Shown: positions 43,399 through 60,612 of the stretch, one piece after another
Layout of the letters: each line of letters opens with the position of its first letter
How positions within the stretch are numbered: position 1 is the stretch's first letter
Source of the DNA: Prevotella communis
Lineage (GTDB): Bacteria > Bacteroidota > Bacteroidia > Bacteroidales > Bacteroidaceae
NCBI RefSeq assembly: GCF_022024175.1
Contig: NZ_CP091794.1
Coordinates: 2,480,001 to 2,544,000, forward strand
Direction: 5' to 3'
DNA: 64,000 nucleotides
Made by a program: the position numbers and the translations under genes
Notes under the pieces: model-generated
Told to the model about the DNA's origin: nothing
Databases searched by the model: none
Seen by the model: only the letters and a program-made list of their open reading frames with translations

Positions 43399-43428
43399 CT
43401 TATATATTATGTTTTTACTTTCGGGATG

Positions 43429-43464
43429 CAAAGGTACGAATAAGATAGCGAAATGCAAAAAGAA
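43429..43464 (-). promoter_or_regulatory. aspS promoter, third copy of the 36-bp promoter repeat
   Basis: The minus strand has TTTG (43459-43456), 19 bp, then TACCTTTG (43436-43429). The whole 36-bp stretch matches the copies at 59970-60005 and 60100-60135 at 33 of 36 positions by my count. Confidence 0.75.
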
Positions 43465-43487
43465 ATTTGTTTTCTTTTCATAATTTA

Positions 43488-43519
43488 TTTGTTTTTTCTC
43501 ACACTTATTCGTATCTTTG
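43488..43519 (+). promoter_or_regulatory. GH105-type gene promoter (TTTG-N20-TATCTTTG)
   Basis: TTTG at 43488-43491 and TATCTTTG at 43512-43519 are 20 bp apart and lie 28 bp before the ATG at 43548, divergent from aspS. Confidence 0.78.
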
Positions 43520-43547
43520 CACCCAAAAACGAGACAAAAAGACTACA

Positions 43548-52206: not shown

Positions 52207-52269
52207 ACGGCCTCAGCGGTTTCTCTACCGCTTAAGACAGACAAGCCAATACACTTAGGAATAAAAAAA

Positions 52270-52296
52270 ATAACCGTCGGCAATGCCGGCGGTTAT
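52270..52296. terminator. bidirectional terminator between the HAD and rplT genes
   Basis: A 12-bp stem with one G-T pair (ATAACCGTCGGC at 52270-52281 with GCCGGCGGTTAT at 52285-52296), a 3-nt loop, an upstream A-run and a downstream T-run. Confidence 0.9.
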
Positions 52297-52320
52297 CTTT
52301 TTTCTTGCTTCAAATGCAAT

Positions 52321-52665
52321 TTACTTCACCTTTGCAACGATAGCCTTGAAAGCCTCGGGGTTGTTCAGGGCGAGGTCAGCGAGCACCTTACGGTTGATCT
52401 CGATACCAGCCTTTGACAGAGCACCCATCAGCTTAGAATAGCTCATACCCTCCAGGCGAGCGGCAGCGTTGATACGCTGGATCCACAGTGCGCGGAAGTT
52501 GCGCTTCTTATTACGACGATCGCGATAAGCGTAGGTCAGACCCTTCTCCCAGGTGTTCTTCGCTACTGTCCAAACATTCTTGCGGGCACCGAAGTAACCG
52601 CGAGTAAGTTTCAGGATTCTCTTACGTTTTGCACGTGATGCAACGTGATTTACTGATCTTGGCAT
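52321..52665 (-). CDS. rplT: 50S ribosomal protein L20
   Basis: This 114-residue protein starts [20 protein letters not shown] and has [36 protein letters not shown] and a C-terminal globular part; it is a clear L20. It binds 23S rRNA early in large-subunit assembly. It is the third gene of infC-rpmI-rplT, 36 bp after rpmI. Confidence 0.98.
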
Positions 52666-58070: not shown

Positions 58071-59089
58071 AGTTTATCCCCACGTATTTCCAATGGCATC
58101 GGTATATTATCCGTGAAGAGCTGACCAGTACCCAGCCCCTGCGGCATCTTGATATTCTCGCCATACACCTCACTGCAGAACTGTGCGATAGCGTTCAACC
58201 CGATGTTACTCTCCAGTGCCGACGTGATCCATGAGCCGATGCCCTCGTCCTTGGCTATCTCTATCCATTCCCTGCACCCCATCATACCGCCGTGAAGCGA
58301 TGGCTTCAGGACAATATAGCGCGGTTTGATGATACGCAGCATCTGACGCTTCGCATCCGGGTCGCTGATACCTATCAGTTCCTCATCAAGGGCAATGGGA
58401 AGTGGCGACTCTCTGCAGAGCTCAGCCATCATCGCCCACTGCTTCTGCTTGATAGGCTGTTCGATGCTGTGGATGGCATATTGCGACAGCAGTTCCAGCT
58501 TATAGAGTGCCTCGTCAGGACGGAACCCGCCATTGGCATCCAGTCGCAGTTCCACCTCATGATACGAGAACCGCTCGCGGATACGCTTCACCAGATCCAG
58601 TTCCTGGTCAAAGTCGATAGCCCCCACTTTCAGTTTCACGCAACGGAAGCCCAGTTTCAGCTTCTCCTCCATGCGCTGCAACATCTCCTCGTGGTTTCCC
58701 ATCCACACCAGTCCGTTGATCGTGATGCCCTGTTCACCGCGGGCAAAAGGGGTATCGAAGAGCACACCTCTGCCGTCTGCCTTTCTACTTCTTACTTCTT
58801 TCATCGCCGTTTCCAGTCCGAAGAGCATTGATGGATAGTCGCGCATCTCCTCATAGGGTATCTCGCCCGTCTGCTCCACCTGGTCACAGAAGCCCCTCAG
58901 CACCTTATTATATACTGCAGGCTCCATGGCGTCGCAACTCAAATCGAGCAGCGGTGCACACTCACCGCGTCCGATGGTTCTTCCATCGGAAATAGACACC
59001 AACCATATCCGTCGCTCCGTATATACCCCGCGACTGGTTCCTGCCGGCTGCTTGAAATGGAGCACCCGCTCCTCAATATCTATTTTCAT
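58049..59089 (-). CDS. menC: o-succinylbenzoate synthase
   Basis: This 346-residue enolase-superfamily protein has an N-terminal cap ([20 protein letters not shown]), the catalytic lysines in [18 protein letters not shown], metal-binding Asp/Glu in [25 protein letters not shown] and IALDEELIG, and a later lysine in [11 protein letters not shown]. It dehydrates SHCHC to o-succinylbenzoate. It overlaps menB by 4 bp upstream and menE by 22 bp downstream. Confidence 0.94.
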
Positions 59090-59943
59090 GGTATCTTAGG
59101 ATATTTATCGAAATCAGGTTTACGTTTCTCCAGGAACGCTTTGCCGCCCTCCTGTGCCTCGTCCAGGAAGTAATACAGCATGGTGCAGTCGCCAGCCAAC
59201 TGCTGGATACCAGCCTGTCCGTCCAGCTCTGCATTCAGTCCGGCCTTAATCATTCGCAGGGCGATGGGCGAACGCTCCATCATCGTCTCGGCCCAACTAA
59301 CGCACTCATCTTCAAGTTGTTCGATGGGTACCACCTTGTTCACCATACCCATCTCCTCGGCCTCCTTAGCCGAATACTGACGACACATGAACCAAATTTC
59401 GCGCGCCTTCTTCTGCCCCACGATACGAGCCAAGTAAGAAGAGCCGAATCCAGCATCAAACGAGCCCACCTTCGGACCCGTCTGTCCGAAGATAGCATTC
59501 TCCGACGCTATTGTCAGGTCGCACACCAGATGCAGCACATGACCACCACCGATGGCATAACCATTCACCATGGCGATTACAGGCTTGGGCAGTCTGCGAA
59601 TCTGCATCTGCACATCCAGCACACTCAGGCGGGGCACACCCTCATCATCGATATAGCCACCACGACCCTTCACATGCATATCGCCACCACTGCAGAACGC
59701 GTGCTTCACGTCGCCCAGCGTCTTTCCCTCGGGCACCTCACTCATCGCACCCGTGAGCAACACCACGCGGATGCGCTGCAGCTCCCTGCACTGTGCGAAC
59801 GCCTGACTCAGCTCCAGCGTTGTCTTTGGTGTAAACGCATTACGGTAGCGCGGACGGTTTATCGTAATCTTCGCAATGCCGTTATACTCTTCGAAGAGAA
59901 TCTCCTCGAATTTCTTAATCTCTTTCCATTCTCTTTTTGCCAT
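59086..59943 (-). CDS. menB: 1,4-dihydroxy-2-naphthoyl-CoA synthase
   Basis: This 285-residue crotonase-fold enzyme has [52 protein letters not shown] and [20 protein letters not shown], diagnostic of MenB. It closes the second ring of naphthoquinone in menaquinone synthesis. It is the first gene of menB-menC-menE. Two copies of a promoter-bearing 36-bp repeat lie 27 and 157 bp upstream. Confidence 0.96.
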
Positions 59944-59969
59944 ATCTCGTTTCGTTAGTTATTTGCATG

Positions 59970-60005
59970 CAAAGGTACGAATAAGCGAGCGAAATGCAAA
60001 AGGAA
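59970..60005 (-). promoter_or_regulatory. 36-bp promoter repeat, copy proximal to menB
   Basis: The minus strand carries TTTG (60000-59997), 19 bp, then TACCTTTG (59977-59970), 26 bp before the menB ATG. All 36 bp recur at 60100-60135. Confidence 0.8.
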
Positions 60006-60099
60006 TGCCAGCATTTCTTTTCATTTCCGAGCGCAAGTACCTTCTTGCGTCCCGTTGGTAGCAAGCGTCACCCGTTGGGATGCCGAGCGCGACGTCAGT

Positions 60100-60135
60100 C
60101 AAAGGTACGAATAAGCGAGCGAAATGCAAAAGGAA
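60100..60135 (-). promoter_or_regulatory. 36-bp promoter repeat, distal copy
   Basis: This is identical over 36 bp to 59970-60005, with TTTG (60130-60127), 19 bp and TACCTTTG (60107-60100). It may act as a second, upstream menB promoter. The ~94 bp between the copies contain smaller repeats (CCGAGCGC twice; CCCGTTGG twice) and a hairpin CGCAAG-TACCTT-CTTGCG at 60032-60049. Confidence 0.75.
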
Positions 60136-60176
60136 AACGAAAAAAAATACGGGTCACTTATTTTTTTTATTGTCTT

Positions 60177-60356
60177 GCGTTACAGTTGTTACAGATTACA
60201 GTTAAATCTCAACTACATACACCCCCAAAAATGGTCAAAAAAAATGTAAATACTATTTACTATTATATAATATATATATATTATATATAATAGTACCTTC
60301 AATTTAGCCAAATTTATAGCTTTAAAACCTAACTGTAATCTGTAACACTGTAACGC
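60177..60356. repeat. 180-bp non-coding element with inverted terminal repeats
   Basis: The left arm 60177-60204 (28 nt, containing TTACAG three times) and right arm 60330-60356 (27 nt) are reverse complements with a single 1-nt gap. The middle is AT-rich and holds a second palindrome, about 60257-60294 (TACTATTATATA ... TATATAATAGTA). It has no open reading frame of note and resembles a MITE or a dispersed palindromic element. Confidence 0.7.
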
Positions 60357-60434
60357 GCTTAGTCATGATAAGCACACATATAACCTTTTCTTGTTTTTTG
60401 ACAAAGATTACTCTTCTATCTCATTTTTTATGAG

Positions 60435-60612
60435 TACCTTTGCATCGTCAATGAGGGATAAATATTGCGCCCTAACTAGCGAGAAAAATTTTCCTAGTGC
60501 ACGAGGAAGTTTGGAAGCACGAAGGCACTCTAGAGCCCCGAAATTGACAAGGGTAAAAAGATTAAACATAATACGTGACCAGGCACGCCACAAAGATACA
60601 ACTTATTTTTAA
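60435..60612 (+). ncRNA. candidate short transcript in the menB upstream gap
   Basis: TACCTTTG at 60435-60442 is a good -7 box without a standard -33. Downstream, the DNA can form stems such as ACTAGCGAGAAAA with TTTTCCTAGT (60475-60499) and AGTGC ... GCACT. A 51-codon frame starts at 60452, but its composition (RRHSRAPKLTRVKRL) is not protein-like to my eye. It could be a small RNA, a remnant gene or part of the repeat landscape; evidence is weak. Confidence 0.25.

Follow-up and report, generated by a model that had tools for sequence, protein, structure and literature searches.

Mobile promoters are homologous promoters that lie upstream of non-orthologous genes within one genome. Putative mobile promoters have been mentioned in prokaryotes (PMC8049555), and REP/REPIN elements are short intergenic palindromes mobilised by RAYT (TnpA_REP) (PMC6006769, PMC3733652, PMC8049555). 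In the Bacteroidetes, Y1 transposases of subclass 2.6 have been reported beside atypical hairpins (PMC6006769), and Porphyromonas gingivalis carries the BrickBuilt MITE (PMC4596501). The primary sigma factor of this group (sigma-ABfr) recognises a consensus of TTTG at -33 and TAnnTTTG at -7 (PMC7366714). We describe here a family of repeats from Prevotella in which a promoter of this type forms one arm of a hairpin. The repeats stand before dozens of unrelated genes in bacteria of the Prevotella group, which appear to rewire their gene starts with this small spreading element. The window, the whole 64,000-nucleotide stretch that was analysed, covers positions 2480001-2544000 of the source genome, a single contig of 3.55 Mb.

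The fold-back unit and its copies

The first-pass annotation drew attention to two 36-mers, CAAAGGTACGAATAAGCGAGCGAAATGCAAAAGGAA, at 59970-60005 and 60100-60135, and to a related copy at 43429-43464 on the aspS side. The two are indeed identical (36/36) with a spacing of 130 bp, the aspS-side copy mismatches the menB 36-mer at 3/36 positions as noted, and the copies read TTTG-N19-TACCTTTG on the minus strand, directed toward menB and aspS. In gene orientation the 36-mer makes up the right arm of a unit ~84 bp long that folds back on itself. The features concerned, in window coordinates, are these:

59086-59943, minus strand: menB-like enoyl-CoA hydratase family gene downstream of P1 and P2 (open reading frame; Pfam ECH_1, E 1e-76)
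59968-60043, minus strand: big hairpin of the unit upstream of menB, with the left arm (AAGGTACTTGCGCTCGGAAATG..) from 60043 downwards, the loop, and the right arm with P1 (covariance model R1, 78 bits, E 6e-17)
59970-60000, minus strand: predicted promoter P1, a consensus match with -33 TTTG at 59997-60000, a 19-nt spacer and -7 TACCTTTG at 59970-59977
60045-60090, no strand assigned: 46-bp GC-rich insertion GCGCTCGGCATCCC..GGGTGACGCTTGCTACCAACGGGACGCAA between the small hairpin and the left arm
60091-60100, minus strand: small hairpin, GAC-GTCA-GTC on the plus strand, with a d(cGNNAg)-type loop
60100-60135, minus strand: predicted promoter P2 (the upstream 36-mer), with -7 TACCTTTG at 60100-60107 and -33 TTTG at 60127-60130
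43427-43521, no strand assigned: third copy, two divergent promoters as a near-perfect inverted repeat, one facing left to aspS and the other facing right to a GH88-family gene (fold, Pfam, and matches to R1 on both strands)

Across the family the unit measures about 73-90 bp (84 at the menB locus) and comprises, in gene orientation, the small hairpin, a left arm of the form GAAGGTACT-Y-N-CG-Y-TCG, a variable stem-loop and the right arm. The right arm, CTCRCTTAWTCGTACCTTTG, is a complete sigma-ABfr-type promoter by consensus match, with the pattern N-CTC-R-CTTA-W-TCGTACCTTTG followed usually by CA and then the gene; from this match and from its position it is predicted to be an active promoter. 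The left foot changes together with the -7 box and pairs as GGTAC/GTACC, GTTAC/GTAAC (L259, L372) or GGTAG/CTACC (L291, L294). As regards the terminal inverted repeats and target-site duplication of a MITE, an inverted foot, GGTAC/GTACC, is present and TACCTTTG is repeated on both sides, where it may be target or element; no parent IS was identified. A divergent promoter in the left arm was also considered and is not favoured, the -7 there reading TACCTT without the conserved TTTG.

At the menB locus the big hairpin folds with both RNA and DNA energies, the menB ATG lies 35 nt beyond the -7 box of P1, and the gene next to menB is MenC_N by Pfam. The spacing of the two 36-mers is 130 bp rather than 84 bp because the separate 46-bp insertion adds to the 84 bp of the unit. 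This insertion is a clean presence/absence difference between two loci of genome G289 (L325 and L329) and recurs at the same place in several units, that of L179 included; it has the appearance of another small dispersed element lodged inside the promoter unit. Related strings also occur within the big-hairpin loop of L411. The upstream 36-mer (P2) is, by its make-up, a half-unit, a putative older promoter without a left arm, and its counterpart in G290 is a full unit. The aspS copy is, as read from its repeats, an arrangement built differently from the menB unit; the inverted repeat between aspS and the GH88-family gene is 18 bp long and near-perfect, with the -33 boxes inside it.

Two other stretches of the window deserve mention. 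A ~398-bp dispersed repeat at 60177-60573 adjoins the menB repeats and shares 95% identity with a copy at ~3077900 of the genome (L032). Its 60386-60573 part is also found at ~1761000 and ~1316100, and it starts with a MITE-like 184-bp piece bearing 28-bp inverted repeats at its ends (60176-60204 / 60330-60357). At 52251-52338 there are sub-threshold Rfam matches (BSnc120, E 7e-5), far under the gathering score, which are probably due to chance.

The family is not confined to the three copies first noticed. For the 31-mer with <=3 mismatches the chance expectation is 0.00 per window. Genome-wide, five such copies were found, and the structure-plus-sequence model finds 14-18 units in the source genome (14 at E<=4e-8, 18 at E<1e-3). 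Four relatives have 31, 28, 66 and 33 units. Most copies from a looser search sit inside a longer imperfect palindrome. The palindrome pattern has five exact copies in the source genome and is present in 13/36 genomes of the same genus, the source genome counted, and in 0/24 genomes from other families of the same order; among 84,980 species genomes it matches at least 118 stretches. The relatives and database matches are Prevotella, Prevotellaceae and Bacteroidaceae records. All five 31-mer copies lie on one chromosomal strand, but this bias was gone with the fuller model search. Carriage by phages was likewise set aside, with only 2 exact matches among 2.9 million viral contigs.

Stem sequences vary from copy to copy while complementarity is kept, and compensating switches (for example A-T to C-G to G-C) are common. 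At the first eight stem positions, 85% of the pairs in 147 distinct hairpins are Watson-Crick, compared with 56% (maximum 59.5%) when arms are re-dealt among copies, and in a curated 22-sequence alignment 10/21 pairs changed on both sides, a score reached by 0/500 shuffles. Conservation at fixed positions is largely imposed by the search pattern; copies found without requiring a left arm show the left arm too. We regard the predicted covarying hairpin structure as real. This bears on the explanation that the copies only share a strong core promoter and that their similarity reflects sigma-factor and spacer constraint. TTATNNGTACCTTTGCA is common to many promoters of the genome that lack a hairpin, and the window holds more promoter-like sites than expected (12 vs 0.76), both as this explanation would have it. 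The left arm, however, lies far outside any promoter element, yet its sequence is conserved and changes in concert with the right arm, so promoter constraint alone is insufficient and the explanation is already refuted; the exchange of units as blocks (below) also speaks against it, and we give it almost no credence.

Placement, turnover and exchange of units

A same-strand ATG open reading frame begins within <=250 nt of 142/146 units (range 4-250 nt, median 27 nt). In the source genome the units stand before ten unrelated genes, namely menB, aspS, trpS, ychF and four-helix-bundle-type, MATE-type, purH-like, EamA-type, RluD-like and PASTA-type genes (menB and aspS were checked by Pfam; most other names come from reading the sequence). 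The small hairpin usually has a second -7 box immediately upstream, exact TAnnTTTG in 73/147 flanks and with one mismatch in 52/147. Units also form tandem arrays, with up to four in L324. Among loci found by the model, 44/45 of the -7 boxes nearest the gene read TACCTTTG, versus 7/13 of the internal ones, which marks the gene-proximal promoter as the one that is kept. Internal array promoters often carry TACCTCTG instead (L387, L389, L392, L395, L254), as though a single recurrent T-to-C change had silenced them.

The number of units differs between close relatives. The menB locus has one unit in the source genome and in G074, two in G290 and none in G289, while in the last the gene and its neighbour still align. 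Upstream of ychF the source genome has one unit, G141 and G302 have two or three, G112 and G347 have half-units, and G290 and G074 have plain promoters without a unit. Units also differ in kind. At the MATE locus the source genome and G136 are near-identical for ~100 bp upstream and across the gene start, and the block between TACCTTTG and CA differs in subtype between the two. G141 has near-identical two-unit arrays before ychF and before an unrelated gene 7 kb off; the flanks are unrelated and the identity spans AGGTACT to TTTGCA. Three G136 units (L369, L370, L372) have source-genome orthologues without a full unit, the source-genome allele of L372 being short by about one unit length with the right arm retained. 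The 88-bp indel of L372/L383, the cleanest one, might have arisen by deletion between repeats. A clean gain of a unit by an otherwise unchanged empty promoter was not seen in the compared loci, where the empty alleles have diverged intergenic DNA. The nearest-neighbour copy lies in the same genome at 0.52 versus 0.17 by permutation, and at the sequence level the subfamilies are shown to be lineage-specific.

Taken from such sequence comparisons, the apparent spread or exchange of units as cassettes is well supported. The first-pass proposal of a mobile or gene-converted promoter cassette therefore holds in that the units precede unrelated genes, vary in close relatives, are swapped within conserved flanks and are copied between loci; what has to be given up is the 36-mer as the natural unit, which is the right arm only. 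The same turnover might be achieved without any transposition if promoters already sharing 16-36 bp (CTTAWTCGTACCTTTGCA) underwent recombination, template switching or gene conversion with one another, together with tandem duplication and deletion. The half-units identical to the right arm of a full unit (L246, L248, L383), the shuffling and copy-number change of units inside arrays, and the failure to find an enzyme at the Y1_Tnp loci and genomes checked all agree with such a process. By itself, however, it does not account for the conservation and covariation across species of left arm, internal loop and small hairpin alike, nor for copying between unrelated flanks that stops at the unit boundary. 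We consider it rather unlikely.

The putative folded strand and the proposed mechanism

The sequences d(cGNAg) and d(cGNNAg) form unusually stable DNA loops, RNA prefers GNRA, and tandem G.A mismatches in a 5'-YGAR-3' context stabilise DNA. On the strand opposite the gene, small-hairpin triloops are GNA in 40/72 (binomial p about 3e-29) and tetraloops are GNNA in 15/30 (binomial p about 5e-11), with GNRA in only 2/15 of the latter; the loops are closed by C-G in 82/102. Where the gene strand has T.C and C.T mismatches, the opposite strand has tandem G.A in the 5'-YGAR-3' context. With DNA energies the big hairpin is stabler on the template strand in 120/144 copies. When the small hairpin is added both strands fold about equally well, and wobble pairs number 34 vs 37 between the strands, a comparison confounded by the promoter, which fixes one arm. 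From the loop chemistry we infer, short of proof, that the gene's template strand may fold as single-stranded DNA. An RNA element was rejected, as Rfam 15 holds no family matching the unit at gathering score and the small-hairpin loops are not RNA GNRA.

These loops also help in weighing a selected cis-regulatory structure, either a cruciform extruded from the duplex or a fold in the RNA transcribed from P2, that would tune the downstream gene with mobility being incidental. Nearly all units are promoter-proximal and co-oriented, TTTG is lost from internal promoters, and folding would sequester the -7 box, since this box is what the foot pairs with, all of which would suit a regulatory role. 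Against this, the downstream genes (menB, aspS, trpS, ychF, MATE, EamA) have no obvious common function, the same gene is found with or without a unit in close relatives, and both the DNA-type loops and the lack of an Rfam match count against RNA. We judge it improbable.

The search for a mobiliser centred on the Y1 transposases. No transposase gene flanked by units was found, the 18 Y1_Tnp loci yielding one clear nearby match, about the expectation from density, and the most unit-rich genomes of the panel (G032, G027, G035) have no Y1_Tnp match at E<=1e-3. An IS200/RAYT link was rejected on these grounds, that the Y1_Tnp loci checked lack flanking units and that the presence of Y1_Tnp does not track unit copy number. 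The source genome does encode a 269-aa Y1_Tnp/RAYT-like protein at 3295523-3296332 (L215:2024-2833), with NHFH and YIHQNP motifs and a C-terminal extension; apart from one weak match, no units flank its gene. Given this Y1-family open reading frame and the hairpins reported beside subclass 2.6, there may still be room for a mobiliser acting from a distance.

The account we prefer, and think rather more likely than not, is that the repeats are fold-back DNA cassettes, dispersed as a family and each carrying a promoter, with a single-stranded copying intermediate of the template strand. A unit lies immediately after the TTTG of a -7 box that was already in place, and the simplest reading of the tandem growth, the unit boundaries and the orientation is that it arrives there. 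Its right end would regenerate ...TACCTTTG, leaving the downstream gene with a promoter at nearly the same place; the regenerated TACCTTTG would let the site accept a further unit, giving rise to tandem arrays, and the older upstream promoter would then be free to decay. The copying intermediate would be the gene's template strand, single and folded into two hairpins, and candidate agents are a trans-acting single-strand nuclease or transposase, or host recombination on the repeated ends. A bolder version is held tentatively and with more doubt than belief: a self-spreading promoter, a minimal element mobilised as folded single-stranded DNA, would seek out active promoters by their -7 box, insert itself just behind this box and bring along a promoter of equal function. 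If true, a self-spreading promoter of this kind would keep the host gene on and so colonise essential genes without damage.

If true, a spreading element that repairs its own insertion damage would partly own the core-gene promoters of a genus that is dominant in gut and rumen. The units would also offer a tractable system for studying promoter movement, the formation of tandem promoter arrays and the persistence of structured DNA by genes. Conserved promoter flanks in Prevotella may then mean element ancestry and not regulation.

Comparison with known systems

A literature search limited to open-licence papers found no description of this unit family. A close likeness is to REP/REPIN, including the atypical structures of subclass 2.6: both are short imperfect intergenic palindromes in tens of copies, with covarying stems, tandem clusters, species-specific subfamilies and a probable single-strand fold (PMC6006769, PMC3733652, PMC8049555). 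The Prevotella units, at 14-66 copies per genome and with an internal loop in the hairpin, share this palindromic make-up and copy number. Unlike REP, they carry a full predicted promoter and lie upstream, not downstream, of genes in one orientation. The REP foot is GT[AG]G, whereas the foot of the unit is mostly GTAC...GTAC, with GTTAC/GTAAC in some, and only the minority GGTAG/CTACC fits; REP elements come with RAYT, whereas no linked RAYT gene was found at the Y1 loci checked. Because the foot differs and the Y1 loci checked lack flanking units, we do not class the unit as a REP.

BrickBuilt also belongs to the Bacteroidales, with about 19 intergenic copies per genome, a tandem structure and promoter activity of its own (PMC4596501). 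Compared by description only, it is a 23-nt minisatellite with a leader and a tail, it has no promoter-arm hairpin, and placement behind a -7 box is not described for it (PMC4596501). The sigma-ABfr promoter matches the right arm exactly, but is an ordinary promoter without the covarying left arm or the small hairpin (PMC7366714). With mobile promoters the unit shares homology upstream of unrelated genes, seen in the ten different genes of the source genome and in the G141 array before ychF and an unrelated gene, and adds to it a defined covarying hairpin architecture and unit boundaries. Overall, the unit family is real and not ordinary, and works like REP elements or mobile promoters.
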